From the NCBI RefSeq assembly GCF_947487575.1, contig NZ_CANKXG010000004.1, forward strand, positions 124,001 through 188,000: a DNA stretch of 64,000 bases, written 5' to 3'. Shown piece by piece: positions 6,137 through 33,352 of the stretch. This DNA is from an uncultured Algibacter sp. (lineage in GTDB: Bacteria > Bacteroidota > Bacteroidia > Flavobacteriales > Flavobacteriaceae). The notes under the pieces were generated by a model. That model was not told where the DNA came from, ran no database searches, and saw nothing but the letters and a program-made list of their open reading frames with translations. The position numbers were made by a program, and so were the translations under genes. Position 1 is the first letter of the stretch; each line of letters starts with the position of its first letter.

Positions 6137-6257
6137 AGTAAAAACCATTCGTCGACACTTATCCGTTATTCAACTATATTAAAACCCAAATTAGCGAAAT
6201 ATTATTCACTTTCCTATTTACTTAAATTAATTTAACCTCTTAAAATTAGGAGAGACT
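6137..6257 (+). promoter_or_regulatory. Upstream region of NO-signalling operon with LytTR-like direct repeat
   Basis: Half-site CCATTCGTC at 6145-6153 and a degenerate partner TTATTCAAC at 6166-6174, 21 bp apart, match the motif found before the polysaccharide genes. The -7 element expected 62 bp on is weak (TCACTTTC at 6206-6213, spacing 61), so the promoter assignment here is tentative. If real, the operon would be autoregulated by its own LytTR protein. A purine-rich ribosome site (AGGAGAG) precedes the ATG at 6258. Confidence 0.5.
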
Positions 6258-6668
6258 ATGAATACATTAAATATATTGCTCATTGAGGACGATATGATAG
6301 AGGTTATGAAATTGAACAGAACAATTTCTAAACTAGAATTACCTCATAACATCGTGGAAGCCAACAATGGCGAAGAAGCTTTAAAAATTTTACAAAAAAA
6401 AGACGAATTACCTGACATTATTTTATTAGATTTGAATATGCCAAAGTTAAACGGCATTGAATTTTTAAGTATTTTAAAGAAGGATGACGTTTTAAAATAT
6501 ATTCCAACAATTATATTAACAACGTCCAATAATCAAAAAGATTTATTGGAATGTTATAAAATAGGTATTGCAGGATATGTTTTAAAACCTTTAAAATATG
6601 AAGATTATGTCTCCAAAATAGAAAAGCTTTTAGGGTATTGGAGCATAAATGAATTAAAGCAAATTTAA
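6258..6668 (+). CDS. Single-domain receiver (Rcp1/CheY-like response regulator)
   Basis: A 136-residue stand-alone receiver domain. The acidic pair is EDD at 10-12, the phosphoacceptor Asp is D58 in LLDLNMP, the Thr/Ser switch lies in ILTTSN, and the Lys is in VLKPLKYED. The slightly long form with the extra loop resembles Rcp1-type regulators that pair with PAS kinases. No output domain is present, so it should pass phosphate on. It is the first gene of the NO-sensing operon (stop TAA at 6666-6668 directly abuts the next ATG) and probably the middle receiver between the kinases and the Hpt protein. Confidence 0.92.
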   Translation: MNTLNILLIEDDMIEVMKLNRTISKLELPHNIVEANNGEEALKILQKKDELPDIILLDLNMPKLNGIEFLSILKKDDVLKYIPTIILTTSNNQKDLLECYKIGIAGYVLKPLKYEDYVSKIEKLLGYWSINELKQI

Positions 6669-7208
6669 ATGAAAGGAATTGTATTTACAGAGTTTTTAGA
6701 CCTTGTTGAAGATAAATTTGGATTGGAGGTTGTTGATAAAATCATCACACAATCTAATTTAGAATCTGGAGGTATTTATACATCTATTGGCACCTATAAA
6801 TTTTCTGAAATGCTACAATTACTTCAGCATTTAAGTGCACATACTGATATTTCTATAGATGATTTACTTCTTGTATATGCTGAACATTTTTTTGCTGTAT
6901 TAGAACAAAGTTACCCAGGGCTGTTAGCCACTTATAAAGACCCTATAGAGATGTTATCTTCAATAGAAAACCATATACACGTTGAGGTTAGAAAAATATA
7001 TCCGGATGCAGAATTACCAACGTTTGAAGTCATAGAGAAAACAGAAAATTCTCTTGTAATGATTTACAAATCTAGTAGAGCCATGCATCATTTTGGATTA
7101 GGTTTGATGAATAAAACCTTCGAACATTTCAACTCTAAAGCAAATATAGTCTTAGAGAAATTGAATGAAGATGGTACTGAAGTTAAGTTTTTGATTAATA
7201 AAAATTAA
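6669..7208 (+). CDS. H-NOX heme nitric oxide sensor
   Basis: Cytosolic heme protein of the H-NOX (HNOB) family, which binds NO and controls a partner kinase. The proximal heme ligand is H104 in NHIHVEVRKIYP, with the usual spacing to the YP pair. The heme-propionate motif YxSxR is Y133-S135-R137 (YKSSR). At 179 aa it is of normal length for a stand-alone bacterial H-NOX. It is immediately followed, with a 1-bp overlap, by a PAS histidine kinase, the usual genomic arrangement for H-NOX and its associated kinase. NO selectivity is expected from the family but not proven by sequence. Confidence 0.93.
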   Translation: MKGIVFTEFLDLVEDKFGLEVVDKIITQSNLESGGIYTSIGTYKFSEMLQLLQHLSAHTDISIDDLLLVYAEHFFAVLEQSYPGLLATYKDPIEMLSSIENHIHVEVRKIYPDAELPTFEVIEKTENSLVMIYKSSRAMHHFGLGLMNKTFEHFNSKANIVLEKLNEDGTEVKFLINKN

Positions 7209-9184
7209 TGAGTCAAGATAAAATTGACATGCTGTTACGTGCGCTTGCACGAGAAAAAGCAGCGCGGAAACAGGCAGAAAAAATCCTTGAAAGTAAGGCT
7301 GCCGAATTGTATGAAACAAATCAAAAGCTAGAGAAATCCTATACAGAATTAGAAGCTTTACTCAATAAAACAGATTCCCAATTACAAGGCGTTTTTGAAA
7401 ACATTGTTGATGCCTATGTTATCATGGATTTGTGGGGGAATATTCTGAAAATGAATGACCCAGCCGTAGAACTATTAGGGTTTTCAAGCACTAAAGAAAA
7501 TGCTAATTTGATGGATATGGTGCATCCTTCAGATTTAAAACTAGTATCAAAAACCTTTAAAAATTTACTTGCTGATGGTGCGGTTACAGATTCTGATTTT
7601 AGAATAATTACCAAGCAAAAAGATGAAAAATTAGTACATGTAAATGCTAGTATTATTTATGATAATGGACAACCTGTTGCAGCTCAAGGTATAGTTAGAG
7701 ATATTACCCAAGCCAAAGCGGCAGAGGTACAACTTATAGAATCTGAAAATAGATTAGCATCACTTGTTCTTAATTTAGATAGCGGTGTTTTATTAGAAGA
7801 TGAAAATCGAAAAATAGTACTCACAAATAATAAATTTTGTGAACTTTTTGATATACAGGAAAGTCCAAAGGAATTAAAAGGAGCTGACTGCAATGATGCT
7901 ACTGAACAAAATAAAATTCTATTTAGTAAGCCTAAGTTTTTTGTTGATAGAATTAACAAAATTCTAAAAGACAGAAAAGAGGTTATTGGTGATGAATTAG
8001 AAATGGTCAATGGTAAAATTTTACTACGCGATTATATACCCATTTTTGAAAATAAAATATACAAAGGACATCTTTGGGCCTATAAAGATGTGACTTTAAG
8101 ACGTAATTATCGTAAAAGTCTAGAAGCGCAAAAACAAAAATATAGCAGCATTATTGCTAATATGAATTTAGGATTAATGGAGGTTGATAATGATGATAAA
8201 ATTTTGATGGTAAATCAAAGTTTTTTAGACATGTCTGGGTATGATGAAGCTGAATTAATAGGAAAAGTAGCTAGCAATACATTTTTAGTAGATACCGATT
8301 CTGAAAAATTAAAAAAAGAAAATACAAAGCGTAGAAAAGGCGAATCCAATTCTTATGAATTAAAAGGAAAAACAAAATCGGGTGAAGTTAGGCATTGGTT
8401 AATTAGTGGCGCGCCAAATTATAATTTAAATGGAGAAGCTACAGGTTCTATAGGGATTCACTTGGATATTACAGATTTAAAAAGTTTACAATTACAAAAA
8501 GAAACTTTACTAGAAAAGCTAGAAAAAAGTAATAATGAACTACAAGAATACGCACATATTGTATCTCATGATTTAAAATCGCCTTTGCGAAGCATAGATG
8601 CTTTGGTCAATTGGATTAAAGAGGATAATCAAGATAAATTGGATGACACTAGTCTTCAAAATTTTAATTTAATTGAGACTACATTAGAAAAAATGGAACA
8701 ACTTATTTCTGATGTGTTGATGTATTCTAGCGTTGGTGCTGAAACTTTAGAAAAACAAACTGTTGATTTGGATGCGTTGATTATAGATTTAAAAACCATT
8801 TTATACGTTCCAGATCATATATCTATTTTGGTGTTAAATCCTTTACCTAAACTAGAAGGCGAAAAAGTTAAATTACAACAGTTATTTCAAAATTTAATTA
8901 GTAACGCTATTAAGTTTATAGATAAAGAGATTGGATTAGTTGAAATTGATGTAAAAGATAATCATACACATTATCAATTTTCAGTAAAAGATAACGGCAT
9001 TGGTATAGAAGAAAAGTTTCATGATAAAATTTTTAAAATTTTTCACGCGCTAAATAAAAGTAAAGATTCATCAGGAATAGGACTCTCTATTGTTAAAAAA
9101 ATTGTGGATTTACATGAAGGCGATATTTGGTTAGAAAGTAAACCAAACGAAGGAACTACCTTCTTTTTTACCCTAAAAAAATAA
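7208..9184 (+). CDS. PAS histidine kinase, H-NOX-associated
   Basis: A 658-residue soluble kinase with no membrane segment. It has an N-terminal charged coiled coil (LLRALAREKAARKQAEK), then about three PAS-like domains (roughly 55-170, 180-300 and 310-430). HisKA follows with phospho-His H454 in IVSHDLKSPLRS, and then the HATPase domain (N box NLISNAIKF, G1 DNGIGI, G2 SGIGLSIVKK). It carries no receiver. The N-terminal Arg/Lys/Ala helix resembles that of NosP/H-NOX-linked kinases such as NahK. It lies between the H-NOX and FIST genes, so either sensor could be its input; adjacency favours H-NOX. Confidence 0.92.
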   Translation: MSQDKIDMLLRALAREKAARKQAEKILESKAAELYETNQKLEKSYTELEALLNKTDSQLQGVFENIVDAYVIMDLWGNILKMNDPAVELLGFSSTKENANLMDMVHPSDLKLVSKTFKNLLADGAVTDSDFRIITKQKDEKLVHVNASIIYDNGQPVAAQGIVRDITQAKAAEVQLIESENRLASLVLNLDSGVLLEDENRKIVLTNNKFCELFDIQESPKELKGADCNDATEQNKILFSKPKFFVDRINKILKDRKEVIGDELEMVNGKILLRDYIPIFENKIYKGHLWAYKDVTLRRNYRKSLEAQKQKYSSIIANMNLGLMEVDNDDKILMVNQSFLDMSGYDEAELIGKVASNTFLVDTDSEKLKKENTKRRKGESNSYELKGKTKSGEVRHWLISGAPNYNLNGEATGSIGIHLDITDLKSLQLQKETLLEKLEKSNNELQEYAHIVSHDLKSPLRSIDALVNWIKEDNQDKLDDTSLQNFNLIETTLEKMEQLISDVLMYSSVGAETLEKQTVDLDALIIDLKTILYVPDHISILVLNPLPKLEGEKVKLQQLFQNLISNAIKFIDKEIGLVEIDVKDNHTHYQFSVKDNGIGIEEKFHDKIFKIFHALNKSKDSSGIGLSIVKKIVDLHEGDIWLESKPNEGTTFFFTLKK

Positions 9185-9187
9185 TAA

Positions 9188-10321
9188 ATGAAAATAGTAC
9201 AATTAAAAAAACATAAGGAAAGTGATTGGGAATATTTGTCACCAAAGCAACCATTATCTAAACCCTTGGTTTTGGTTTTAGGAAACAGGTACTTGTTAGA
9301 AAATGATACTATTTTTGAAGAAGTGAAAACTTTGTTTCCAGATGGGGATATCGTTTTGGGTTCTACAAGTGGCGATATTACTTCAGATGCAGTTGATGAT
9401 GATAGTATAACGATTACTGCCATAGAATTTGAAAAAACAGAGTTTTTAATTAAAACGAGTAACGTTTTAAATTCAGATTTAGACAGTCATAAAACGGGTG
9501 TAGATTTATTAAAGCAATTTCCAGAGGAAGGGCTAAAATATGTTTTTGTATTATCAGAAGGCAGCTTTATAAATGGAAGTGAACTTACTAAAGGGATGAA
9601 CACCTCTACAAGTAATAATGTGTTAATTACAGGAGGATTATGTGGTGATGCAGCTCGATTTGAAAAAACTTTAGCAGGCTATAATGAGAATCCAAAACCA
9701 GGCGAAATTATAGCTATAGGGTTTTATGGTGAATCGTTTGAGGCTTCATTTTCAATTCATGGTGGATGGACACCGTTTGGTCCAGAACGTGTGGTTACCA
9801 AATCAGAATCCAACGTACTTTATGAGTTAGATAATCAACCAGCATTGGACTTGTATAAAAAATACCTTGGTGAAAAATCTAAAGAATTACCAGCTGCAGC
9901 ATTGTTGTATCCTTTAAATGTGAAATCTACGGAAGAAAAACAATCTTTTGTGCGAACCATACTTAACATAGATGAAGCTGATAATACCATGATTTTAGCT
10001 GGCGATATTCCAGAAAATTCTAAAGTACAGTTAATGATGACTAATGTTGATAACATAGCAAATGCATCTGAACGTGCTGCTAGACAAGCTTTAGAATTAA
10101 GAAGCACAAAACCACAATTGGCTATATTAGTTAGTTGTATTGGTAGAAAATTAGTTTTAGATCAGCGTGTAGAAGAAGAAATTGAAGAAGTAGTTGCTGT
10201 GGTAGGGAATGAAACTACAATATGTGGTTTTTATTCCTATGGCGAGATTGCACCCTTTCATGGTGAAAATAATTGCCAGTTGCACAACCAAACCATGACT
10301 ATAACGCTAATAAGCGAATAA
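9188..10321 (+). CDS. FIST-domain sensor, NosP-like
   Basis: FIST_N (about 1-210) plus FIST_C (about 215-377). The C-terminal motif LHNQTMTITLI and the mid-protein stretch IHGGWTPFGPERVV are typical of the family. Some FIST proteins (NosP) are heme-based NO receptors that act on a neighbouring kinase. Here the gene sits between two kinases in an operon that already has an H-NOX, so an NO or related ligand-sensing role is plausible. Which histidine would bind heme cannot be settled from sequence alone. The stop TAA shares a base with the next ATG. Confidence 0.85.
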   Translation: MKIVQLKKHKESDWEYLSPKQPLSKPLVLVLGNRYLLENDTIFEEVKTLFPDGDIVLGSTSGDITSDAVDDDSITITAIEFEKTEFLIKTSNVLNSDLDSHKTGVDLLKQFPEEGLKYVFVLSEGSFINGSELTKGMNTSTSNNVLITGGLCGDAARFEKTLAGYNENPKPGEIIAIGFYGESFEASFSIHGGWTPFGPERVVTKSESNVLYELDNQPALDLYKKYLGEKSKELPAAALLYPLNVKSTEEKQSFVRTILNIDEADNTMILAGDIPENSKVQLMMTNVDNIANASERAARQALELRSTKPQLAILVSCIGRKLVLDQRVEEEIEEVVAVVGNETTICGFYSYGEIAPFHGENNCQLHNQTMTITLISE

Positions 10322-11370
10322 TGAATTCATTACTAAAACGTCAAATACGAAAATATTTATCTGAAGAACAAGTATCTTCTGAGGGTTTAACTGCGTTTTT
10401 AGATGCAATAAACCGTTCATATACTAATTTTGATGAACAGTATGTGATGCAACAACGCGCCATGTCTATCAGTTCAGAAGAATTGTTTATTGCTAATGAG
10501 CAGTTAAAACAAGAAGCGATTGCGCAAAAGGAAGTAATTGATAAGCTTAAACACGTTATTGAAACCCTTAAGTTTTACGAATTACCAGATCATAAAAATT
10601 TAGATAATGTAGATTTAGATGGTTCTAAACTTGTAGATTTTATAGATAATCAAACCAAAGAAATTGTAAAGATTAATAAACAGCGTGAAAAACTTTTAGA
10701 AGAGTTAGGACATCAAAATCAAGAACTAAGTGATTATGCACACATGGTGTCTCACGATTTAAAATCGCCTTTGCGAAGTATTGATGCTTTAACAGCTTGG
10801 ATAAGTGAAGACTATAAAGAAAAGCTAGACGAGAATGGACGTGAAAGTTTAACACTTATTAGAAATAATGTTGAAAAAATGGATACGCTTATAAGCGGTA
10901 TTTTAGATTATTCTACCATTAATAAAAATCAAACTGAATTCTATGAGGTTGATATTGATAAGCTAGTAGATAATATTATGTCTACTATGTTGGTGCCACA
11001 ACATATTACTTTTGAAAAAGCTAATAAATTGCCAGTAGTAAAAGGCGATAAATTTAGATTGCAACAACTTTTTCAAAATCTTATAGATAACGCTATAAAG
11101 TATAATGATAAGTCGGAAGGGCTGATTGAAATAGGTGTTAAAGATGACATTAAGTTTTGGGAATTCTCTATTAAAGATAATGGTAAAGGTATCGATAATA
11201 ACTATTTTGATAAGATATTTAAAACATTTCAAAAGCTAGAAAATAATCCTGAATCTTCAGGTATAGGCTTATCTATTGTCAAAAAAATAGTAAATCTTTA
11301 TGGTGGTGACATTTGGGTAAAATCTGAAATTGAAAAAGGCACAACCTTTCATTTTACATTAAAAAAATAA
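10321..11370 (+). CDS. Histidine kinase without PAS domain, FIST-associated
   Basis: A soluble 349-residue kinase. The start is placed at 10321, overlapping the FIST stop by one base. The ATG at 10273 lies inside the FIST gene and would add only out-of-frame residues. An N-terminal alpha-helical region (FLDAINRSYTNFDEQ) leads to a coiled coil, HisKA with H145 in MVSHDLKSPLRS, and an HATPase domain (NLIDNAIKY, DNGKGI, SGIGLSIVKK). The kinase core is very similar to that of the 7208-9184 kinase, suggesting duplication. It probably answers to the FIST protein and feeds the same phosphorelay. Confidence 0.9.
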   Translation: MNSLLKRQIRKYLSEEQVSSEGLTAFLDAINRSYTNFDEQYVMQQRAMSISSEELFIANEQLKQEAIAQKEVIDKLKHVIETLKFYELPDHKNLDNVDLDGSKLVDFIDNQTKEIVKINKQREKLLEELGHQNQELSDYAHMVSHDLKSPLRSIDALTAWISEDYKEKLDENGRESLTLIRNNVEKMDTLISGILDYSTINKNQTEFYEVDIDKLVDNIMSTMLVPQHITFEKANKLPVVKGDKFRLQQLFQNLIDNAIKYNDKSEGLIEIGVKDDIKFWEFSIKDNGKGIDNNYFDKIFKTFQKLENNPESSGIGLSIVKKIVNLYGGDIWVKSEIEKGTTFHFTLKK

Positions 11371-11373
11371 AAG

Positions 11374-11691
11374 ATGGAACAACCTAATTTATCCTATATA
11401 AACGAATTGTCTGGAGGGGATGATGCTTTTAAAAATAAGTTGATTGCTATTGTAAAAAAAGAATTTCCAGAAGAAAAGGAAGTGTACCTTAAAAATTTTG
11501 AAGGAAAAAAATTTAAGAAAACCGCAGAAAACGTCCACAAACTTAAACATAAAATTAGTATTTTAGGGCTCGAAGAAAGTTATAAAATAGCTGAAGATTT
11601 TGAAGATAACCTAAAAGAAAGTAATATTTCTGGTTATGAAACATTTAATGAGATTCTTCAAAATATAACAGACTATTTAGAGACGTTATAA
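11374..11691 (+). CDS. Hpt phosphotransfer protein
   Basis: A small all-helical protein of 105 aa. The segment around H55 (VHKLKHKISILGLEE) fits the Hpt consensus, with the phospho-His followed by Lys at +3 and a small/hydrophobic turn. No other domain is present. It is 4 bp downstream of the second kinase and 10 bp upstream of the LytTR regulator. It therefore most likely takes phosphate from the 6258-6668 receiver and passes it to the LytTR protein. Confidence 0.85.
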   Translation: MEQPNLSYINELSGGDDAFKNKLIAIVKKEFPEEKEVYLKNFEGKKFKKTAENVHKLKHKISILGLEESYKIAEDFEDNLKESNISGYETFNEILQNITDYLETL

Positions 11692-11701: not shown

Positions 11702-12412
11702 ATGAATTGTATTATCATAGATGATGAAGCTACAGCTAGAGCAATTATCATTCAGTTGTGTTCAAACATTCCAAGTTTAAATATTTTAGAAGAGTTTCCT
11801 AATGCACTACAAGCAATAAAATATTTAAATCAACATGAAGTGGATTTAATTTTTCTGGATATTCATATGCCCGATTTTACAGGTTTCGATTTTATTCAAA
11901 CCTTAAAAAACCCACCTAAAATCATACTCACAACTTCTGATGCTCAATTTGCTATTGAGGCGTTTGAGTACGATTGTATTGTAGATTATTTAGTAAAACC
12001 TATTGCATTACCACGATTTGAAAAAGCGATTAAAAAAGCTGAATCTTTTGCAGCAACAACTTCAAACACTACTGAAAATGATAAAGTAGAAACTACTTCT
12101 GGTAATGATTTGTATGTGAATATTGATAGACGTTTGATAAAAATAGATATTCCAAGTATATACTTAATTGAAGCTAAAGGCGATTACATATATGTAAAAA
12201 CAGAGGATAAGAATTACACAGTACATTCTACGTTAAAGAAAATAGAAGAAAAATTGCCTAATGATTTATTCTTGAAAATTCATCGCTCATACGTTATTAA
12301 TGTCCAAAAAATCATTGATATTGAGGATAATAGCGTGCTTATTAAAAAAGATGTTATTCCTGTAAGTCGTTCTAACCGACCAGAATTAATGAAGCGATTA
12401 AACTTGCTTTAA
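11702..12412 (+). CDS. LytTR-family DNA-binding response regulator
   Basis: The output protein of the operon. A receiver domain (acidic residues D7-D8, phospho-Asp D53 in LIFLDIHMP, Lys in YLVKP) is joined by a Thr/Ser-rich linker to a LytTR DNA-binding domain. That domain runs from about 135 to 236 (LYVNIDRRLIKIDIPSIYLIEAKGDYIYV and FLKIHRSYVIN regions). LytTR proteins bind paired short direct repeats about 21 bp apart. Such repeats with AlgR-like sequence occur before this operon and before several polysaccharide genes in the window, which makes this protein the prime candidate for binding them. Confidence 0.93.
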   Translation: MNCIIIDDEATARAIIIQLCSNIPSLNILEEFPNALQAIKYLNQHEVDLIFLDIHMPDFTGFDFIQTLKNPPKIILTTSDAQFAIEAFEYDCIVDYLVKPIALPRFEKAIKKAESFAATTSNTTENDKVETTSGNDLYVNIDRRLIKIDIPSIYLIEAKGDYIYVKTEDKNYTVHSTLKKIEEKLPNDLFLKIHRSYVINVQKIIDIEDNSVLIKKDVIPVSRSNRPELMKRLNLL

Positions 12413-13455: not shown

Positions 13456-13525
13456 CCATTCGTCTACAGTAAACTTTCATCTAACGAAAAACAACAAAAC
13501 CCCCTTACCAACCAACCTACATTTG
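13456..13525 (+). promoter_or_regulatory. LytTR-type direct repeat and promoter of the T9SS gene
   Basis: Half-sites CCATTCGTC (13456-13464) and TCATCTAAC (13477-13485) are 21 bp apart and joined by a TACAGTAA spacer. The -7 element TACATTTG (13518-13525) is a perfect Bacteroidetes TAnnTTTG and lies 62 bp after the first half-site. There is no TTG at the -33 position, which suggests activator dependence. Confidence 0.75.
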
Positions 13526-13545: not shown

Positions 13546-16125
13546 ATGAAAAAATTAATACTGTTATTATTTATCACTAGCGCAGTTTACGGACAAGATA
13601 CGCCATTTAACTGCGATTATAACGCCTACTTATTTCAATATAACGATGTATATGCTATCGATTTAGCTTCTGGAAATTCGTACCAAGTAGCTAAAGATGT
13701 AACACAAGGCACTATAAATGCAGCTGCTTATAATCCAGCAGATGGTTATATCTGGGGTTCATTAAGTTTTCCATCAAAATCTATTGTACGCATAGGAAAA
13801 GATTTTTCTACACTTATTTTTTATGTAGATGAATTACCAACTAATGGTCGCTATATAGGCGATGTAAGTGCAAATGGGGTGTATTACCTTAAAGGTGGTG
13901 GTACAACGTATTATGCTATAGATTTAGATCCAGAATCAGAAAACTATGGGCAACACAAAGCTACTTTAGACTTGCCTCTAAACATAAGTATTCACGATTG
14001 GGCATTTAACGCTGTAGACGGGCAATTATATACTGTAGAAAAGAAAACAAACATATTATATAGAATTAATGCTGAAACAGGTACCATTAAAAGTTTAGGT
14101 GAAGTACCAATTTTATCAGGATTAAATTACACATACGGTGCCGTTTATTTTGATGCTTCTGGTCGTTTTTATGTATCTGCTAACCAAACAGGAACTATAT
14201 ATGTCATTCAAAATGTGCAAGATGTAAACAGTGCAGCCGATATGGAATCTAATTTATTTGCTTTTGGGCCATCAAGTTCTCAAAACGATGGCGCACGTTG
14301 TCCTACAGCACCAGTACCACAAGAAATTTGTGATAATGGTATTGATGATGATGGCGATGGTTTAATCGATTGTGAAGACCCATCATGTTCAGGTTACGCA
14401 GGGTGTCCTGTAATTGAAACTTCAATATCATCAAGTGCAAACGAAGGAGGGTTAGAGAGTAATAACAGACTATCAGAATTAATCAACAAACGTAATTTTA
14501 ATCGTGTAAAACGCAATTACAATTTTGATAAAGCAACAGCAAAACGCTTTAAAAAGTCTGCCACATACGGTAAAACGGTCTCAGGAAAAGGCAACGGCTT
14601 TCAATTATCAGATTTCATTCCGTTAGAAGTTGTAAACGAAGACGAAGCCATAGAATCTTCTCCAACAGATTTAATAGGTATTACCAATGCAAAAGAAGTC
14701 TATTCAGTAGATTATATGAAGCATAACGAAGCCATAGCCTCAATTTTATTACTAAAAACAGACAATGGCGTATACGAACACACCAAGTACATCTGCGATA
14801 GGTTATTAGGAGCAGAATTAGTATCAGTATCCACTATAGAAATTAAAGAACAACAATTTATAAAAGCATTAATACGCAATATAGATGGCAGCTTAGAGTT
14901 TGTACTAAGTTTTTCAGCCAAAGCCATAGATAACGATACCAATTTTGCGATAGAAAGTCACTGGAATTTAGATAAATACCAAGAAAATGTAGGCTTTTAC
15001 AATTTCCAAATCTGGTCTAATTCTTTAGACGATTTAGTAAAACTAGGCGAAGAAGTGGTAACGTTATTAGACATTCAAAAACCAGTAACAAGTTATAACA
15101 ATTCTGCGGCACCAACTGTATTTGTTAAATCAGGGAAATACCGTAACGGTAAGTTAGACTTACAAATTGTAAACACTAACAAAACTACAAGTGTAGTATT
15201 TGATGGCGGACTAAGAACAACCGAAACAGAGACTGTAGAAATGGTATCAACTAATATAACATTAGATGAGCATTACATTTCAAATGTAGAAGTAGATGCA
15301 GGAAGTTTATTTGATGTAGGGTTTAGAATAGGCGATGGCGTTAACACACCAGACGATTTATTCCTATCAGACGGTCCCTGGGGCTACGACGATGCACAAG
15401 CCAATGTAACACGTTTTGATGTGGCACCAAATACCACAACATTTAATGAAGACGTATATGCCGTAGAGCGCGACATCACCCTAGAAGCCACAACAAACAA
15501 TTATGTAGCTACCTATCGTGCCTTAACGCCAAAATTTAACCCAATAGATTTATCAGAATTTAACAGCCTAAAATTAGAAGCAAAAGGTACAGGTACGTTA
15601 ATAGTACGCTTGGTAAAAGAAGGCATCAGCAATTGGGAAGCACAGTATAAAACCAGCATTAATTTAACAGATGCCATTACAGAATACAACCTTATGTTTT
15701 CAGATTTCAGATCAACAAACGGTACACCGTTACAAGCCCATGATGTTACCTCAATAGTGTACACCATGCTAGCCGATAATGGCGAAACACAAACCAAAAC
15801 AATGACGCTACAGCAAGTACATTTTGCAAACACCGAAGCGCTATCAGTAAGCGATATAACAGAAAATCAAGGCGAAACCCTATTGGCATCACCAAACCCA
15901 ATGCGCTCAAACACCACCATATTGTTTAACGCAAAAGTTCACGAAACGGTAACCCTAAAAATGTACAACCAAATGGGCGCCTTAGTAAAAGAAATAGACT
16001 ATTCCGTTAACCGCGGAGAAAATAACCTGCCACTAAAAAGAGGACAATTAAGTTCAGGCATGTATTTCTGCAAAATTGTAAGTAGCCAAAACCAGTATCA
16101 AACCCTAAAACTACTCTTAGATTAA
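13546..16125 (+). CDS. Secreted protein with T9SS type A sorting domain
   Basis: An 859-residue exported protein. A Sec signal peptide (MKKLILLLFITSAVYGQ) is followed by a beta-propeller-like region of about 240 residues (repeated small motifs such as LYTVEKKTNILYRI). An Asp-rich calcium-type motif (NGIDDDGDGLIDCEDPSC) comes near 265-285. A carbohydrate-binding-like beta-sandwich lies near 600-760, and a C-terminal type IX secretion signal covers about the last 75 residues (ASPNPM...GMYFCKIVS...LKLLL). A surface or matrix role is likely. The LytTR-type promoter directly upstream ties it to the polysaccharide genes. No enzymatic motif was recognised. Confidence 0.85.
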   Translation: MKKLILLLFITSAVYGQDTPFNCDYNAYLFQYNDVYAIDLASGNSYQVAKDVTQGTINAAAYNPADGYIWGSLSFPSKSIVRIGKDFSTLIFYVDELPTNGRYIGDVSANGVYYLKGGGTTYYAIDLDPESENYGQHKATLDLPLNISIHDWAFNAVDGQLYTVEKKTNILYRINAETGTIKSLGEVPILSGLNYTYGAVYFDASGRFYVSANQTGTIYVIQNVQDVNSAADMESNLFAFGPSSSQNDGARCPTAPVPQEICDNGIDDDGDGLIDCEDPSCSGYAGCPVIETSISSSANEGGLESNNRLSELINKRNFNRVKRNYNFDKATAKRFKKSATYGKTVSGKGNGFQLSDFIPLEVVNEDEAIESSPTDLIGITNAKEVYSVDYMKHNEAIASILLLKTDNGVYEHTKYICDRLLGAELVSVSTIEIKEQQFIKALIRNIDGSLEFVLSFSAKAIDNDTNFAIESHWNLDKYQENVGFYNFQIWSNSLDDLVKLGEEVVTLLDIQKPVTSYNNSAAPTVFVKSGKYRNGKLDLQIVNTNKTTSVVFDGGLRTTETETVEMVSTNITLDEHYISNVEVDAGSLFDVGFRIGDGVNTPDDLFLSDGPWGYDDAQANVTRFDVAPNTTTFNEDVYAVERDITLEATTNNYVATYRALTPKFNPIDLSEFNSLKLEAKGTGTLIVRLVKEGISNWEAQYKTSINLTDAITEYNLMFSDFRSTNGTPLQAHDVTSIVYTMLADNGETQTKTMTLQQVHFANTEALSVSDITENQGETLLASPNPMRSNTTILFNAKVHETVTLKMYNQMGALVKEIDYSVNRGENNLPLKRGQLSSGMYFCKIVSSQNQYQTLKLLLD

Positions 16126-17030: not shown

Positions 17031-17035
17031 TTCCG

Positions 17036-24346: not shown

Positions 24347-24369
24347 TTGTATCACCCTAAATTTATGTT

Positions 24370-24678
24370 ATGATGGATTTCCAGATAGTAAATAATAAAG
24401 GTGTTTATGAAATACATGGTGATTTTACAACTACCAACACAAATGAAGCAGCTCTATATTTCAGTAACTTATTGGATAAGTATTATGAAATAGTGATATG
24501 CTTAAAAAAAGTGAGAAAATTTGATGACAGTGCTTTGAAAGTTATGCAGTTTTTAACTAATAAAGCCACAAGACGAAGTAAGACGCTCTTTGTTCTAGGA
24601 AAAAACAATAAGCGTATTACAAGTTTATTTAACAAAACTAGTTTAAAAGGTATTTTTAGAAATGATTATGACTGCTAA
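24370..24678 (+). CDS. STAS-like protein 2 (degenerate)
   Basis: A 102-residue STAS fold with the site motif changed to FDDSALKVM, where the usual Gly after Ser is Ala. Phosphorylation on that Ser remains possible. The start may be either of two adjacent ATGs (24370 or 24373). It overlaps the flippase start by 17 bp, so the two are probably translationally coupled. It could form a heterodimer with STAS protein 1 or act on the flippase; neither is shown by sequence. Confidence 0.8.
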   Translation: MMDFQIVNNKGVYEIHGDFTTTNTNEAALYFSNLLDKYYEIVICLKKVRKFDDSALKVMQFLTNKATRRSKTLFVLGKNNKRITSLFNKTSLKGIFRNDYDC

Positions 24679-26086: not shown

Positions 26087-26156
26087 CCATTCGTCTACAG
26101 TAAAATTCCAACTATCTAAAAACACCAGCTTTAGTCTCTACTAAGCTGGATATTTG
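26087..26156 (+). promoter_or_regulatory. LytTR-type direct repeat and promoter of the second GT4 gene
   Basis: CCATTCGTC (26087-26095), spacer starting TACAGTAA, and CCAACTATC (26108-26116) are 21 bp apart. GATATTTG at 26149-26156 is 62 bp after the first half-site; no -33 TTG. Upstream, 25934-25980 holds a degraded GTCATTTCGAAATG-type repeat copy. Confidence 0.75.
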
Positions 26157-26193: not shown

Positions 26194-27411
26194 ATGAAAT
26201 TAGCAATCGTTACAGCATATCCTCCAAGTAAAGTTACTTTAAATGAATATGCATATCATTTAGTAAAACACTTCAGACAAAAAGAGCATATTACAGAATT
26301 GGTGTTACTTACAGATACTACTGAAGGAAAAAAAGACATCAACTTTACAGAAGATGGATGCAAAATTACAATAAAAGAATGTTGGACATTTAATAGCTAT
26401 TTAAATATTATAAACGTTACAAAGGCTATCAATCAAGAAAAACCAGATGCTGTATTATTCAATTTGCAGTTTATGAAGTTTGGCGATAAAAAAGTAGCTG
26501 CTGCTTTAGGTTTAATGTTGCCACTAGTTTGTAAGCTAAAAAAGATACCAAACATTGTGTTATTGCACAATATACTTGAAGAAGTAGATTTAGGAAGTGC
26601 TGGTTTTACTAATAATAAAATCATGCAAAAATTGTATGGATTTATTGGGAGCACACTTACAAGACTTATTCTACAAGCTGATACGGTTGCAGTAACCATG
26701 CAGAAATACGTTGATATTTTAAGTAAAAAATATAATGCGACTAATGTGAAATTAATACCTCATGGCACGTTTGAAATTCTTGAAGAACCAAATTATGATA
26801 TTCCTTTAGAGCCATTTAAAATTATGACTTTTGGAAAATTTGGAACCTATAAAAAAGTAGAAGGTATGATTGAAGCTGTTGAAATGCTTAGAAATGTTTC
26901 AGATTTAAATCTTGAAATTGTTATAGCTGGAACAGATAATCCTAATACACCTGGATATTTAGATGCCGTTAGAGAACAATACAGTCATGTAGAAGGGATT
27001 ACGTTTACAGGTTATGTAGCCGAAGAAGATGTTCCTAAGATATTTAATGAAAGTGCAGTTGTAGTTTTCCCATATACATCTACCACAGGAAGTTCTGGTG
27101 TGTTGCACCAAGCAGGAAGTTATGGTAAAGCCGTAGTGATGCCAGATTTAGGAGATTTAGCACTGTTAGTACAAGATGAAGGGTATAGAGGTGAGTTTTT
27201 TGATGCCGAAAGCCCTAGTAGTTTAGCTGTAGCATTACAGAAAATATTAGAAGATAATGCGTATCGTGTTTCACTTGAAAAAGCTAATTACAAAGCAGCT
27301 ACAGCGTATCCGATGTCTAGAATTGCAGATATGTATATCAATACGTTTAAAGGTATTGTTGATAGCAAATTACCTAAAGTAGCATCGCAACCGCAAGAAA
27401 TTATTCTTTAG
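26194..27411 (+). CDS. GT4-family glycosyltransferase, copy 2
   Basis: A 405-residue paralogue of the 22757-23929 enzyme. The same N-terminal (MKLAIVTAYPPSKVTLNEYA) and donor-site (YTSTTGSSGVLHQAGSYGKAV) motifs are present, with a slightly longer C-terminal tail. It is driven by a LytTR-type promoter, unlike copy 1. The 3' end overlaps the convergent hydrolase gene by 11 bp. Probably adds a sugar in the same polymer, with a function identical or closely related to copy 1. Confidence 0.9.
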   Translation: MKLAIVTAYPPSKVTLNEYAYHLVKHFRQKEHITELVLLTDTTEGKKDINFTEDGCKITIKECWTFNSYLNIINVTKAINQEKPDAVLFNLQFMKFGDKKVAAALGLMLPLVCKLKKIPNIVLLHNILEEVDLGSAGFTNNKIMQKLYGFIGSTLTRLILQADTVAVTMQKYVDILSKKYNATNVKLIPHGTFEILEEPNYDIPLEPFKIMTFGKFGTYKKVEGMIEAVEMLRNVSDLNLEIVIAGTDNPNTPGYLDAVREQYSHVEGITFTGYVAEEDVPKIFNESAVVVFPYTSTTGSSGVLHQAGSYGKAVVMPDLGDLALLVQDEGYRGEFFDAESPSSLAVALQKILEDNAYRVSLEKANYKAATAYPMSRIADMYINTFKGIVDSKLPKVASQPQEIIL

Positions 27412-28915
27412 AAATATATTTAAAAGCAGGCTTAGTCTCTCCGTTTTGGTCGATAAACCCAAAATGCTCTTGAGTCTGTTTTCTCCAAGGAAGTCGTCCA
27501 ACGACTTCCTTTGGTATTTCAGTAAAGTCGTAAAGTGTCCAAGACATAAACGAGATATTATTCGCTTTAAAAATCTTTTGAGCGTCTTTATAATACTCAG
27601 CTTGATTGTCTTCTGAATTTCCTAGTGGATGCCATAATCCTTTATTTGACGACATTCCAAATTCGGTAATAGCTATAGTTGTATTTGGTAATTCAGTTTT
27701 AAGCGTTTTAAATGTAGTATCCAAATCACTTAAATCATCATAGTAATGAAAGCTTACAAAATCTAATTGGTTTGTCAACAGCGTAGCGCTGGCAGCATTG
27801 GACCATCCGATAGTTACAGGATGAATGGTGTCTACCGATTTAACTGTAGCTATCATTTCCTTTAACCACGCAGTTACAAGTGTTTTTCCACGAGAATCAA
27901 AATCTAAATTAGGTTCATTTTTAATATCCCAAGCAAAAAGCGCATCATGATGTTGTAATGCCGAAACAATACCAAGCACATGATGTTGGTTAAGTGACCA
28001 ATTAATAACACTATAATCACCATAAAAATCAAAAAGCGTTACCATAACTTTTAGCTGATGCGTTTGCGCCAAATCGAGTACAGTGTTAAGTTTTTCTAAT
28101 TTTTTAGGATTGATGTTGGCTTTATCAAAATCGTCATACGGTACAAAAATTCTAATGGTATTTAATCCTGCATTTTTTATTATGTTGAAATCTGCATTAA
28201 TAATTGTTTCATCAAAACCATCACCATACATATCCCAAGGCGTGGCCTGCGGATAATAATTTATACCTCTAATATTTGAAACCTGTTTTGGTACTTTTTT
28301 GTCAGAACTCACATAAGGCACACTCTGTTGTTTTATTAAATGCCTAATGCGCCAAAACCCATCTTCTAAAAGCAGAATAATTCTATAGGTAGATTGTTCT
28401 TTGGTTTCTAAAACTAGCAAATCATTTTTATATACGCGTTTATATTCTATAACATTACTATCTGTAAGTACGGCAAGTTGCCCATCTTCACTAAAAAAAT
28501 CTAAATTAAGATGATGCTCTAGAGTCGTGCCATCAATATAAATACTGTCTGCTTTGTTTTTCGATATAATATCAAAAATAGATTGTCGTGCATTTTCGGT
28601 ATAATAATCATCAATACCTTTGGTGGTATTGGTTTTATAAGCAATATGCTTAACGTACCAAGCATCTAAATAATCGGTTTCAATTGTGGCTAAAGTTTGT
28701 GAATCCATAGCGCGACCTTCATTATGTATAGGCGCCCATTCTATTTTTGGTAAGTATTGCTCTATTTTTTTTATCTCAGTGTGTAGCATGTTACTGCGGT
28801 CTGCACCTGTATTGAGGTAAGAATAGATGCTGCCAATGCCTAATATAAGTATCGCTGTTATGACTATATACGACAATACTAAAACCCCACGCAATATGTT
28901 TTTATTAATCCCCAT
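27401..28915 (-). CDS. Membrane-anchored GH5-like glycoside hydrolase with NTF2-like domain
   Basis: A 504-residue protein with one N-terminal membrane anchor (VLVLSYIVITAILILGIGSI) facing the periplasm. Residues 40-190 look like an NTF2-like domain (DYLDAWYVKHIAYKT ... FWRIRHLIK). From about 205 there is a TIM-barrel hydrolase of clan GH-A: GINYYP, acid/base Glu in WDIKNEPN and nucleophile Glu in IAITEFGMS. It could trim or release the exported polymer. Last gene of a three-gene minus-strand operon; its ATG overlaps the previous stop by one base. Confidence 0.87.
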   Translation of the reverse strand: MGINKNILRGVLVLSYIVITAILILGIGSIYSYLNTGADRSNMLHTEIKKIEQYLPKIEWAPIHNEGRAMDSQTLATIETDYLDAWYVKHIAYKTNTTKGIDDYYTENARQSIFDIISKNKADSIYIDGTTLEHHLNLDFFSEDGQLAVLTDSNVIEYKRVYKNDLLVLETKEQSTYRIILLLEDGFWRIRHLIKQQSVPYVSSDKKVPKQVSNIRGINYYPQATPWDMYGDGFDETIINADFNIIKNAGLNTIRIFVPYDDFDKANINPKKLEKLNTVLDLAQTHQLKVMVTLFDFYGDYSVINWSLNQHHVLGIVSALQHHDALFAWDIKNEPNLDFDSRGKTLVTAWLKEMIATVKSVDTIHPVTIGWSNAASATLLTNQLDFVSFHYYDDLSDLDTTFKTLKTELPNTTIAITEFGMSSNKGLWHPLGNSEDNQAEYYKDAQKIFKANNISFMSWTLYDFTEIPKEVVGRLPWRKQTQEHFGFIDQNGETKPAFKYISKE

Positions 28916-30117
28916 TAAAGTGTGATGTTTTTTACAGATTTACTAATACCAGCTGCTTGTACCGTAATAGAATAATTGCCTTTTGGAAATTGATTTGGTT
29001 TTAATTCAAATTGTACATAACCATCAGCACTTGTTTTTCGTAGTGTTTCTACAATTGTATTGCTTCTATAAATTTGAAGCGTGACTTGTAAACCATCCGG
29101 AATCATTTGATTCATGAAACTTTTTAATGGGCCTACCGTAATTTTACGATTAGCGTTAGAAAGTTCTATGTCAAAATCTGAAATTACAGCTTTGTATTCA
29201 ATATTAATTTTATTGCTTTTAGCCATACCTTCAATAAAGGCTTGAATGAACCATTTATCAGCATGGTCAGGATGAATTATTCTAGCAGTCACGATACCAT
29301 TTATAGTTGTACCAGATGTTTTTAAAATATTTTGATTAGCTGTTGTAAGAAAAAATTCTACATAAGTACCATCACTAGCTATATTTTGAAATTCATCTTT
29401 TATAATTGAAGTCGATAAGGTTGTTATTTGGTTGCCATCTGCGAACTCATGATGCCTTTGGTAACTGATTTCAAAATCAATAGGTGTTGTAGGCATAATA
29501 TTAACGGTGTATTCTTTTGAATCGAAACCTAAACATGATGAACCCATTAGCATTCTACCTGTTTTTAATGGTGAAAAAATATTTTTATAACTAATGCTGT
29601 TTTTAATACTGATCGTATCTATTTGTTGCGTATCTAAAAACTGATGTTTTACAGCAACTTTGGTGTTTTCTGCCAATGGATTATCATAAATATCTATAGG
29701 AATAGCAACAAGCATGCTAAAATCTGTTCCACCAGCGGCTATACTCGGTGGCCCTAAATACGTCTGAATAGTAGTAACGTTTTGCTGCGGTATAATGTTG
29801 AATTGCCCTTGTAATTCCTCTGTTTTAGTCAGCAAACGCCAATATACAATACCAGACTTATTAGTTATAGTTTCAGGAATAGGATAACTTAACTTATCTA
29901 GAGTATTAGAAGGCGTTATAACTGTAGAGCCAAAGCTGTTACTTACATAAAGTAAAGGTGTTGTGTTTGTTGTTGTGCTAAATTCTAATACAATATTGCT
30001 CCCTGCAACATATTCAGTTTTAGAGGTGATAAGTGTATAGGTTTCTTTTGCTAAACCATAGGCAAAGGTATATGCTGTTAGCAAAATAATAGTTATATAT
30101 GTTTTTAGTATCTGCAT
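28915..30117 (-). CDS. Secreted Ig-like (macroglobulin/filamin-type) domain protein
   Basis: A 400-residue exported protein with signal peptide (ITIILLTAYTFAYGLA) and a series of beta-sandwich domains. The repeated pattern VxVKxxFxD... / YVEFFLTTANQ / KISADGYVQFELKPNQFPKG resembles bacterial Ig-like or macroglobulin MG domains. No catalytic motif was recognised. Coupled by 1-bp overlaps to the large membrane protein upstream and the hydrolase downstream, so it is probably an accessory periplasmic or surface subunit of the same machine. Confidence 0.7.
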   Translation of the reverse strand: MQILKTYITIILLTAYTFAYGLAKETYTLITSKTEYVAGSNIVLEFSTTTNTTPLLYVSNSFGSTVITPSNTLDKLSYPIPETITNKSGIVYWRLLTKTEELQGQFNIIPQQNVTTIQTYLGPPSIAAGGTDFSMLVAIPIDIYDNPLAENTKVAVKHQFLDTQQIDTISIKNSISYKNIFSPLKTGRMLMGSSCLGFDSKEYTVNIMPTTPIDFEISYQRHHEFADGNQITTLSTSIIKDEFQNIASDGTYVEFFLTTANQNILKTSGTTINGIVTARIIHPDHADKWFIQAFIEGMAKSNKINIEYKAVISDFDIELSNANRKITVGPLKSFMNQMIPDGLQVTLQIYRSNTIVETLRKTSADGYVQFELKPNQFPKGNYSITVQAAGISKSVKNITL

Positions 30118-33100
30118 TAATTTGGGTTTCCTAAATAGGCATTTGTTTCAATCTTTATAAAACTATAAACGGGATGGGTTATAGGTTGCAATTGCGATTG
30201 GGTTTGGTTTTTAATTCTATTAGGTAATACTTTATCAGCAATTGCAGTATTTGGTAATCCGTTTACATAACAGTTTTTCATATCATCATTAATAATTGAT
30301 GCCTTAGTTGTATCAAACGTGTATTCAAAATATTGCTTACGCTGTTGCCTTATGCCTTCTTTAATAAAGGTATGGTCTACCCATAGCAAGGTTTTGTCAG
30401 CATCATAATAACTAATCAATACTTGCGGAATGGTTATTTCTTTTATTCCAGAATTAAATAAAGCTCCTGACATACTTTTTTTAGAAATTTTTAAATGACT
30501 CAACACTGTTTGTTTGTATAAATCAGACCCAGAAACGTTGCCTGCAACTTGTAAATTGAACTTAGTAGGCTGTTCTTCAAACTCAACAGGTGTAAACTCA
30601 TCTGGATTAAATGTTTTAGGAATAGAATCTTGGGTTTTAGACCAGGCTATACCTTCAAAATTAATTCTAAACGCACTTACTTCCTTAGGCATTAATTTAT
30701 GTTTTACTTGGTGTTTTGCGTTATACGTCGCCAGCGCTTTGTTATCATCATTATACAATGTGCCTTTTAAAACCACGTCTGCAGGTACATTATCTATATT
30801 TTGAATTTCGCCAATTAGGGCATAACTCTTATTGTGTTTTACCAATTTAGCTTGCAATATTTCTAAAACAGGTTGCTTTAAAACATCTTCATGATGGGTT
30901 TGTTCTGTGGTAATGCGACGTCTACCTTGGTTAAAATAGTCTGTTGTATTGTTACTGTAAAACTGGTCTGGTGGTAAATCTAAATCTACAGCGTTTGGTT
31001 CAATAAACCATTTCCCATCTACTTTAATTAAAGATTTATAAAAGGTTTTGTCTATTTTTTCTAAAGGTGTAATCCATTTTGTTTTCACAATGGCAGAAGC
31101 TAATGTATCTGTTTGTGTAGTTATTTCGGTATCTATAGCATCTAGCTTAGCGTAAGAACTTAATAGGCCATCTGTTACCGATATTTCCAACATATATTGC
31201 GAAATGGTTAAATCACTTTCTGGATTAATAAGGCTATGTGCTTTTTCATACTGTTTAAAATCTAAGGCGTCATAATAGGCAAGTAGTGCATTTTCTGGAG
31301 TATGATGACTTTCGTTTTTTAAATAGAATTGATACATGCCGAAACCAAAAATAATAGCCAATATTATAGACCAAACATGAGTTGTTCTTAAAACGCCATT
31401 AGAAAATTTTGCATAGTTATTTTTAAAGTTTAAATAATCAGGTACATGTTTTACTCTTGTTTTAAGTGCACGTGCAAATAGTAAATGGATGTTTAAAAAG
31501 AAGGCAATAAGCACCGTTAAAAAAGGTATTGTGCCCCAAAGTATTTTTTGCCATTTAACAACATCATCTTTTGGTAAAATGGAGGATAATGGCGGCACGT
31601 TTAATTTTTCCCAAACCTGTATGCCGTTTTCTAATTGTCGCAAACGTTGCCATCCGCAGAAATACAAAATTGGGTCGTAAAATTTATCGTTAGAAAATAT
31701 GTATTTGAAATTATATTTTTCAGGTGTGGTTAAAAATTGTTGTAAAGAGCCAATACCTTCAACACCTTTAAATTTTGAATTTTCTAAACGCTCAATGGGG
31801 CGTGTGGTTAATTCTGGTAAGCGTCTTGCAGAATGATAATTACCATCAACACTCAAAGCTTTGGTTTGTGCCGATAACCAAGCCATTTGGTCACCAAAAC
31901 CTAAAGTCATATACCGCCATTGGTCATGCTGATCTTGATTTAAGAAATTCACAATAGGTAACATCTTAATTTTTTGAGGTTGTGAGGGCCTAAAATATCC
32001 AAGACTCATTGTGAAGATGGTCATAAAAACGAATAAACCAGCAAGAATACCTCCAATAATTCTGTGGTAAACAGCTCCAAATTTGTTTTGTATTAGTGTT
32101 TTTAAATCACCTTCAGACAATCGGTATACAAATTCTCCAAAAAGCGGAATAGACATAATAGATGCCCACAATGTAAATCTATCTAAAGTTAAAATATTAA
32201 AAGCAGTTTCACCTAAAAATAAACGCGGAATAGGCGTGGTGCCACCCGTACCTAAAACTGTAAGTATGGTTATAGATAGTCCAAAAAAGAGATAGCGTTT
32301 GCTATAATATCTATAAAAAATATAAGGCAATACGATAAGTAATACACCCCAAGGAATTAAAAAGAATACTAAACCTGATGAGGTGATTTCTAAAAAGTTA
32401 TCACGAGAACCATGAGGAATTGGTACTTGGGTTATGGGGTTGTTTTTTGAGTTTATCCAATAAGGTAAAATACAACCAACAATTATAACTAGTGATAGTA
32501 ACCCAAAACTTATAATGCGTTTAAATAGTTTAAAAAAGCTATTTAAGAATACTTTAAAGGTAACGGCTTTCATGTTGCCTACCGCTTCTTTAGAAACATC
32601 CATAAGCACCATGCCAATTAAAGGAAAAATAAAAAATATCATCCCGAATATAGGTGTCACATGGTGTGATGTTACAGTAACTGCAATTAAAGATAAGCAC
32701 GTGCATAAATACCTAAGTTTGCCAGTTTTAAGCCATAAATATATTTCTGGTAAGGCGTGCATTAATACTGATATACCAATAATACTTGGCAATTGTCCAA
32801 ACACATGTAAAGTCTCTACAAATGATGAGGATAACACAGCTAAAATAGCAGCATATCCTGCTACGGTTCTATTCCCTGTAATAAGTAATGAGAATCTATA
32901 CGCTCCAGTTATAAAGAGCACAATACTAATAAGTGCCACCACAAACAAGCCAAATTTTAAACCACCAATAAGCGATAAAGCCGCAATAGATTGATGAACT
33001 AGTGGTGGATAACTCATTACCGTAAAGCCTGTATACCACTTGTAACTCCAAGGTTCAAACCAGCTACCAGCATAGTGTTCTGCAAAAAATAAATGTATTA

Positions 33101-33206
33101 ATGCATCATATGTACTTTCTAAGGTGAAAAATATAGAAGTACCATGAAACGCAATGCCAATAAGCAGCGCAATGATTAAATGTTTATTTGATTTTTTTGG
33201 GTTCAA
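30117..33206 (-). CDS. Large GT-C-like membrane protein (PTPS-related type) with NTF2-like domain
   Basis: A 1029-residue protein with about ten N-terminal membrane helices and the acidic loop ESTYDALIHLFFAEH typical of GT-C enzymes. An extracytoplasmic region follows, then two more helices, and a C-terminal region with an NTF2-like domain (ENALLAYYDALDFKQY ... GKWFIEPN). It resembles the 6-pyruvoyl-tetrahydropterin-synthase-related membrane family. The start codon is TTG (33206-33204): no in-frame ATG was found upstream, and MNPKKSNKHLI follows. A polymerase or lipid-linked sugar transferase role is inferred from context. Confidence 0.78.
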   Translation of the reverse strand: MNPKKSNKHLIIALLIGIAFHGTSIFFTLESTYDALIHLFFAEHYAGSWFEPWSYKWYTGFTVMSYPPLVHQSIAALSLIGGLKFGLFVVALISIVLFITGAYRFSLLITGNRTVAGYAAILAVLSSSFVETLHVFGQLPSIIGISVLMHALPEIYLWLKTGKLRYLCTCLSLIAVTVTSHHVTPIFGMIFFIFPLIGMVLMDVSKEAVGNMKAVTFKVFLNSFFKLFKRIISFGLLSLVIIVGCILPYWINSKNNPITQVPIPHGSRDNFLEITSSGLVFFLIPWGVLLIVLPYIFYRYYSKRYLFFGLSITILTVLGTGGTTPIPRLFLGETAFNILTLDRFTLWASIMSIPLFGEFVYRLSEGDLKTLIQNKFGAVYHRIIGGILAGLFVFMTIFTMSLGYFRPSQPQKIKMLPIVNFLNQDQHDQWRYMTLGFGDQMAWLSAQTKALSVDGNYHSARRLPELTTRPIERLENSKFKGVEGIGSLQQFLTTPEKYNFKYIFSNDKFYDPILYFCGWQRLRQLENGIQVWEKLNVPPLSSILPKDDVVKWQKILWGTIPFLTVLIAFFLNIHLLFARALKTRVKHVPDYLNFKNNYAKFSNGVLRTTHVWSIILAIIFGFGMYQFYLKNESHHTPENALLAYYDALDFKQYEKAHSLINPESDLTISQYMLEISVTDGLLSSYAKLDAIDTEITTQTDTLASAIVKTKWITPLEKIDKTFYKSLIKVDGKWFIEPNAVDLDLPPDQFYSNNTTDYFNQGRRRITTEQTHHEDVLKQPVLEILQAKLVKHNKSYALIGEIQNIDNVPADVVLKGTLYNDDNKALATYNAKHQVKHKLMPKEVSAFRINFEGIAWSKTQDSIPKTFNPDEFTPVEFEEQPTKFNLQVAGNVSGSDLYKQTVLSHLKISKKSMSGALFNSGIKEITIPQVLISYYDADKTLLWVDHTFIKEGIRQQRKQYFEYTFDTTKASIINDDMKNCYVNGLPNTAIADKVLPNRIKNQTQSQLQPITHPVYSFIKIETNAYLGNPN

Positions 33207-33229
33207 TAGGTTCTTGTTTTCAACAATGT

Positions 33230-33259
33230 AAAGATATATAATGGGTTTGGTTACTTCAA
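33230..33259 (-). promoter_or_regulatory. Consensus promoter of the minus-strand GT-C operon
   Basis: On the minus strand TTG (33259-33257), 19 bp, then TATCTTTA (33237-33230). This fits the TTG-N19-TAnnTTTG consensus at five of six -7 positions. It lies next to the LytTR-type repeats at 33262-33291, which could also affect it. Confidence 0.65.
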
Positions 33260-33261
33260 TC

Positions 33262-33352
33262 TTAATCGTCTACAGTAAATTACCATTCGTCTACACAAAA
33301 CATCGTATTAAGCTAAAATAGACTTTTTCTTACGGCAATCATAATACTTTTG
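33262..33352 (+). promoter_or_regulatory. LytTR-type direct repeats and promoter of REC-GT2 copy 2
   Basis: TTAATCGTC (33262-33270) and CCATTCGTC (33283-33291) are 21 bp apart, both followed by TAC. The -7 element TACTTTTG at 33345-33352 is a perfect TAnnTTTG and lies 62 bp after the second half-site; no -33 TTG. This is the only site whose upstream partner is also well conserved. Confidence 0.75.

Follow-up and report, generated by a model that had tools for sequence, protein, structure and literature searches.

In a 64,000-nt window of the genome of an uncultured Algibacter sp. (GCF_947487575.1, contig NZ_CANKXG010000004.1, positions 124,001-188,000 of the forward strand; hereafter the window), tandem direct repeats with a 21-bp phase precede a signalling operon and several genes for surface and polysaccharide proteins. 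We propose, with a probability of about 0.8, that these arrays are the operators of the REC-LytTR response regulator encoded at 11702-12412, that this regulator is the output of the relay encoded in its own operon, and that it controls this operon together with the linked surface-glycan locus.

Bacteroidota promoters are built from a -33 and a -7 element, with TAnnTTTG as the -7 consensus. An earlier note on the same DNA had placed CCATT(C)(G/A)TC half-sites at 13456, 23944, 26087 and 33283 and a -7 element starting exactly 62 bp on from each (13518, 24006, 26149 and 33345), and we found these positions and distances to be exact. The TAnnTTTG type that it had assigned to all four elements holds at 13518 and 33345 but not at 24006 and 26149, where the element is GATATTTG, a GAnnTTTG type with one mismatch to the consensus. 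The second, LytTR-like half-site at 21 bp was recovered as a direct repeat of 9+12+9 in a position weight matrix (PWM) from related loci; the REC-GT2 promoter has its best dimer at 33262/33283, which makes 33283 the middle copy, and the third copy at 33304 is weak. The copy reported ahead of the signalling operon turned out to be a triple array (6145/6166/6187). The sixth array, 21269-21302, and the probable nitric oxide (NO) sensor side of the system were absent from that note.

A profile search of the 3.5-Mb genome (150 of 2056 first-look candidates scored) gave six matches at E≤0.13, none of them outside this 27-kb region, with the next best at E 0.7 and 1.4. The half-site followed by N49 and TAnnTTTG occurred four times in the genome with at most one mismatch, every time in this region, and seven times with at most three mismatches (2 in the control). 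Exact CCATTCRTCTACA is present at five places, four of them in this region; the fifth (C1:469826) is without a full array (no score >14 in L264). When two mismatches were allowed, CCATTCRTCTACA gave 153 matches versus 95 in the control. The genome-wide scan proposed earlier, CCATTYRTC-N12-NYA, was too loose and ran at chance (17 versus 18 in the control), as did a search of the window for the short CCATTYRTC that allowed up to one mismatch (52 versus 47.6 expected).

To define the operator, we used the best 80 of 571 loci fetched with the LytTR protein as sole query, which judged by title belong to Flavobacteriaceae or Flavobacteriales (e.g. Algibacter, Winogradskyella, Lacinutrix, Aquimarina and Dokdonia); with the window they make 81 loci. 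The operator in the 80 loci is a direct repeat with a 21-bp phase, CCATTCGTCTACA-N8-CCATTCATCGAAA, present in two or three copies. With at most one mismatch, CCRTTCRTCTACA had 213 distinct matches (matches with identical 75 bases counted once) compared with 4 for its reversal, while the 34-bp PWM found 383 places at a score >15 compared with 2 in shuffled sequence. The count against the reversal is the fairer test, because the PWM was trained on the same loci in which its matches were counted. The PWM consensus, CCATTCGTCTACACTTAATTGCCATTCATCGAAA, has a 21-bp period, and it contains two imperfect 8-13-bp repeats about 12 bp apart, CCATTCGTC-N12-YCATYCATC. The matrix yields 311 arrays in the 81 loci, only five of which lie inside open reading frames (ORFs) of at least 200 aa on either strand, although these cover 77% of the DNA.

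The spacing between the arrays and the -7 element is strongly constrained. Among 133 occurrences of TAnnTTTG within 45-109 bp of the array start, 130 lie at +61, +62, +82 or +83 and 3 elsewhere, and when any first base is allowed (NAnnTTTG), 199 of the 311 arrays have the element at a phased place as opposed to 15 elsewhere. When the -7 element is at 61/62, the last copy, which is of the C(G/T)AAA type, is the second (mean 7.5/8 at +21 and 3.5 at +42; n=123), and when it is at 82/83 the last copy is the third (6.5/8 at +42 and 5.9 at +21; n=76). Since this signature shifts from +21 to +42 as the -7 element shifts from 62 to 82, the last copy starts 40-41 bp ahead of the -7 element in both classes. 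The phasing is common to about ten target clusters that are unlinked at E<1e-15, some small ones of which may be mutually related; the phased targets include the surface protein, STAS, GT4 and flippase genes, a CAP-domain protein, a nucleotide-sugar dehydrogenase and an outer-membrane efflux protein. The earlier proposal of surface and polysaccharide targets at a fixed promoter distance therefore gains comparative support from the 130 phased occurrences.

The presence of the array follows that of the regulator. In a panel of 99 genomes, that of the window included, a LytTR orthologue (at least 61% identity) occurs in 30, and the array (profile E≤0.01; 71 candidates scored per genome under stricter filters) was found in 29 of these 30 compared with 2 of the 69 others (Fisher 1.5e-21, relatedness uncorrected). 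Within the genus and family the contrast was 29/30 with the orthologue versus 2/30 without. The profile was built from 88 of 92 picked sites (no more than 14 per target cluster, score >24, window excluded; two of the four dropped sites were of the 21269 type, which is absent from the profile), and it includes sites from some species that are also in the panel. Independently of the profile, a composite of the half-site and the -7 element gave 72 matches versus 10 in the control, summed over the 99 genomes. Linkage gives the same picture: 67 of 81 array matches share a contig with the LytTR gene and are no more than 40 kb away from it, several of the other 14 being on short contigs, and of the 79 named loci that have the operon's REC gene, 78 carry an array 40-250 bp upstream of it. 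Two unlinked arrays (G035:C1 and G011:C6) are found on other contigs, each ahead of a homologue of the T9SS-sorted surface protein. The link to the 11702-12412 protein, a suggestion in the earlier note, is thereby strengthened, and we regard this protein as the probable binder. Strong arrays whose -7 element is at 61 were also observed in G009 and G005, on other contigs (L251:2187 and L252:2052) and ahead of ORFs of 330 and 320 aa.

Table 1. Arrays and genes of the proposed regulon in the window.
Feature	Position	Strand	Basis and occurrence
Triple half-site array 6145/6166/6187, ahead of signalling operon	6145-6199	+	PWM 37.3; equivalent position in relatives
Single-domain receiver (REC), first operon gene	6258-6668	+	Pfam Response_reg; tblastn in 79/80 loci
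H-NOX haem sensor protein	6669-7208	+	Pfam HNOB, 137 bits; HVEV His and YxSxR retained; tblastn in 78/80 loci
PAS-containing histidine kinase	7208-9184	+	Pfam; tblastn in 80/80 loci
FIST_N/FIST_C protein, NosP-like	9188-10321	+	Pfam FIST; tblastn in 51/80 loci, 5 weak
Second histidine kinase, HisKA-HATPase	10273-11370	+	Pfam; tblastn in 80/80 loci
Hpt phosphotransfer protein	11374-11691	+	Pfam Hpt, 22.7 bits (cut-off 24.6 narrowly missed); tblastn in 80/80 loci
REC-LytTR response regulator, proposed array binder	11702-12412	+	Pfam Response_reg 65.4 bits and LytTR 76.1 bits, above cut-off; tblastn in 80/80 loci
Two-copy array with -7 TACATTTG at 13518, ahead of T9SS-sorted surface protein	13456-13525	+	Profile E 8.4e-7
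859-aa DUF6923 protein with type IX secretion system (T9SS) sorting tail; putative target	13546-16125	+	Pfam; cluster of 72 arrays in 64/81 loci
TPR outer-membrane protein, weakly PgaA-like; putative divergent target	19165-21225	-	Pfam TPR; PGA_TPR_OMP 39 bits (cut-off 367)
Array beside divergent outer-membrane gene	21269-21302	+	PWM 36.8; profile E 7.7e-6
REC-GT2 fusion, in cassette between arrays 21269 and 23944	21421-22560	-	Pfam; synteny
GT4 glycosyltransferase; promoter at 22661 (TATATTTG, upstream TTTG) without array	22757-23929	+	Pfam
Two-copy array with -7 GATATTTG at 24006, ahead of STAS-STAS-flippase genes	23944-24013	+	Profile E 0.002
STAS, STAS and polysaccharide flippase; putative targets	24068-25912	+	Pfam; start codon
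Two-copy array with -7 GATATTTG at 26149, ahead of GT4 gene	26087-26156	+	Profile E 2.5e-6
GT4 glycosyltransferase; putative target	26194-27411	+	Pfam; cluster of 32 arrays in 32/81 loci
Triple array 33262/33283/33304 with -7 TACTTTTG at 33345, ahead of REC-GT2	33262-33352	+	Profile E 0.127
REC-GT2 fusion glycosyltransferase; putative target	33383-34576	+	Pfam

The best NCBIfam match of the regulator is BtsR (120 bits, below the cut-off of 246), and its matches to solved structures concern mainly the receiver domain, 3d6w being the sole weighty match in the LytTR region. The gene content of its operon (REC, H-NOX, PAS-kinase, FIST protein, kinase, Hpt and REC-LytTR, in this order) suggests a relay in which H-NOX, joined by the NosP-like FIST protein in over half of the loci, would signal through the two kinases and then REC and Hpt to LytTR. 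Haem binding by H-NOX proteins depends on a proximal histidine and a YxSxR motif. In an alignment of 79 rows, the histidine of HVEV is present in 78 (one gap), the tyrosine in 78, the serine in 79, and the last position is arginine in 74 and lysine in 5. H-NOX occurs in 33 of the 99 genomes, 27 of which are among the 30 with a LytTR orthologue. NO is the probable signal of the operon. Directly upstream, at 1179-6136, are nitrate/nitrite reductase-like genes, one encoding a molybdopterin oxidoreductase with a pyridine-nucleotide part and the second NIR_SIR plus rubredoxin (tblastn matches in 16/80 loci), and MoaA-, MoaC- and MoaE-like genes are found at 34646-37525. The reductase-like genes and the operon may be linked physiologically through NO formed by nitrite reduction.

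Two or three copies of the 13-bp half-site (CCATTCGTCTACA-like), one every 21 bp, would form a tandem operator for REC-LytTR. As the last copy is 40-41 bp ahead of the -7 element, the bound protein would sit beside the place of -33 contacts and activate, probably in a class II-like manner, its own operon, the T9SS-sorted surface protein, the STAS, flippase and GT4 genes and the REC-GT2 gene, and would act divergently on the TPR outer-membrane protein. The start of the outer-membrane gene was revised from 21276 to 21225, and the listed start of the STAS ORF, 23993, precedes the -7 element, making 24068 the likely start. In many relatives the outer-membrane gene lies next to STAS1 in divergent orientation, and an array occupies the space between them. 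Of the 39 arrays, window included, for which a divergent gene was mapped, 37 have a TAACTTGC-type -7 element of the outer-membrane gene that starts past the array edge at a distance of exactly 15 bp; an element at 15 bp was also seen in 16 of 272 other arrays (unsorted). In the window, TAACTTGC runs from 21253 down to 21246 on the minus strand, 15 bp past the edge of the 21269 array, and a REC-GT2/GT4 cassette now splits the outer-membrane gene from STAS1, with an array of its own on either side. No forward-direction -7 element was found at the 21269 array or its counterparts. The 21269-type array therefore appears to be two-faced, and it may either activate or repress the outer-membrane gene.

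The two REC-GT2 fusions (21421-22560 and 33383-34576), one of them under an array, may be glycosyltransferases controlled by phosphorylation. A REC-GT2-like gene is preceded by an array in 13 of 30 relatives read, and in six of the 13 the first ORF is a 123-aa REC alone. Other genes of the region include an AAA_15 ATPase at 17071-18960, presumably OLD-nuclease-like, which had no tblastn match in the 80 loci (these reach at most 10 kb past LytTR) and is perhaps recent cargo within the regulon. At 28915-33206 on the minus strand are two proteins of 400 and 1029 aa that have relatives in some loci and that, at the thresholds used, matched neither Pfam nor NCBIfam.

Several results weigh against our proposal. 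No NAnnTTTG is found at a phased place in 112 of the 311 arrays, 70 of which are ahead of REC genes, where only 12 of 82 arrays have the element so placed; the 6145 array of the window is one such case, with a degenerate -7 element (TAATTTAA at 6228). Several other REC-gene arrays show TAnnTTG-like variants near 82, as judged by eye. The lack of TTG at -33 claimed earlier for the array promoters found weak support: TTG starting 23-27 bp ahead of the -7 element occurs in 15 of 194 distinct array promoters with NAnnTTTG at the phased place (window excluded) versus 12 of 82 intergenic TAnnTTTG sites, the test being weak partly because this TTG-poor control set carries little TTG signal itself. 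One genome, G001 (L160), has the operon with H-NOX and a LytTR of 61% identity yet no array above a score of 8.7; its operator may have diverged. Conversely, a weak site is present in G012 and G040, which have no orthologue. On the sensor side, three of the 30 LytTR genomes gave no H-NOX match (G014, G055 and G056, the last having a piece where a contig ends, L230), and in G020 H-NOX is unlinked; the regulon is therefore not always H-NOX-dependent. The FIST protein scores 60 bits against the NosP family NF041558 (NCBIfam), below the cut-off of 450. All locus and genome counts are drawn from related species, which makes them non-independent.

The genome of the window encodes four other LytTR matches at E≤1e-30, the two listed having 40% identity, and the operon's LytTR protein is proposed as binder on sequence grounds. 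A paralogue or another DNA-binding protein might then occupy the arrays, the linkage to the operon's LytTR gene being coincidental. We consider this very improbable, since the array is missing from 67 of the 69 genomes without the orthologue, though a more distant LytTR match is present in 42 of them, and since it precedes the orthologue's own operon and mostly stays near it as described above. More serious, though still unlikely, is that LytTR represses from the -33 region, with phosphorylation releasing or tightening its hold, or that the signal is a redox cue or a gas other than NO. H-NOX proteins may indeed sense signals besides NO (PMC8738867), the last half-site abuts the -33 region, and the array edge 15 bp ahead of the outer-membrane gene's -7 element falls where -33 contacts are made. 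Activated promoters, by comparison, are expected to be poor in TTG at -33, as most target promoters are (with the weak control noted above), and to have a -7 element off consensus, as the STAS and GT4 promoters do, in which C or G replaces the first T. The arrays are moreover in helical phase with the -7 element, and such phasing is typical of contact activation.

It is barely credible that a mobile or duplicated promoter element was copied to give the repeats and that no regulator acts on them: the motif is local, with four of the genome's five exact CCATTCRTCTACA copies here, and the two GT4 genes are paralogues, but about ten unlinked target clusters share the arrays, the 21-bp phase is kept across two- and three-copy arrays, and they are conserved over 80 loci. 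Action in RNA, as a leader or attenuator, deserves as little credence. The arrays are about 90-125 bp upstream of start codons, yet they lie upstream of the -7 element, and an Rfam search of the whole window at gathering thresholds had Flavo-1 as its sole match (16220-16364, minus strand; 46.4 bits, gathering score 42) and none at the arrays, and we dropped this explanation.

Our preferred reading, control of the arrays by the operon's own LytTR regulator, has precedents in other bacteria. In LytTR operators, two imperfect copies of a direct repeat stand upstream of the promoter with about 12 bp between them (PMC4064291, PMC4227749), and the AgrA P2/P3 operators share this layout with the arrays; they differ from them in that many promoters here have a third 21-bp-phased copy, in the last copy being about 40 bp ahead of a Bacteroidota -7 element and in the apparently two-faced array that separates the outer-membrane gene from the STAS genes. 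AlgR of Pseudomonas aeruginosa is likewise a LytTR-family regulator of exopolysaccharide. The earlier note pointed out a likeness of the half-site to its box; the AlgR core CCGTTCGTC (PMC4064291) is one base from CCATTCGTC, the main consensus having 8/9 of its bases, and exact CCGTTCGTC occurs in a few relatives (e.g. G020 and G027). AlgR sites are not necessarily 12-bp-spaced direct repeats and take varied, also far-upstream, positions (PMC4064291), unlike the two or three tandem copies in strict phase to the -7 element seen here.

The Shewanella Hno system is an H-NOX phosphorelay of a kind like that proposed for the operon. In HqsK-LuxU and VpsS-LuxU, H-NOX or NosP signals through kinases to an Hpt-type relay whose output is biofilm or gene expression (PMC8738867, PMC6769237), a sensor-kinase-Hpt scheme that the operon resembles in its genes, whereas here a LytTR regulator would carry the output to a local glycan locus. 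Cyclic di-GMP (c-di-GMP) output has been described for H-NOX elsewhere (PMC8738867). Unlike in the known H-NOX/NosP relays, GGDEF was found in 0 of 60 genomes here, that of the window included, versus 8 of 14 control genomes, in a search confined to GGDEF; a c-di-GMP output is therefore unlikely. The word LytTR is absent from PMC8738867, and among the titles and abstract beginnings listed, a set in which subscription journals are little represented, we found no published H-NOX-LytTR system or Flavobacteriaceae LytTR operator.

Taken together, known kinds of protein and operator are joined here in a new combination and geometry. For marine Flavobacteriaceae without detected GGDEF, we put forward, at roughly even odds, a c-di-GMP-free pathway in which NO would act through an H-NOX/NosP-like multi-kinase relay on LytTR, and LytTR through 21-bp-phased operators, one of them two-faced, on a surface-glycan export locus. 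One conserved locus of common marine Flavobacteria unites the operator, its -7 phase, the regulator and a probable gas sensor. It offers a Bacteroidota regulon whose putative target genes are already listed, is suited to the study of how LytTR proteins act on promoters at a fixed 21-bp helical phase, and makes testable the control of surface polysaccharide by NO without c-di-GMP.

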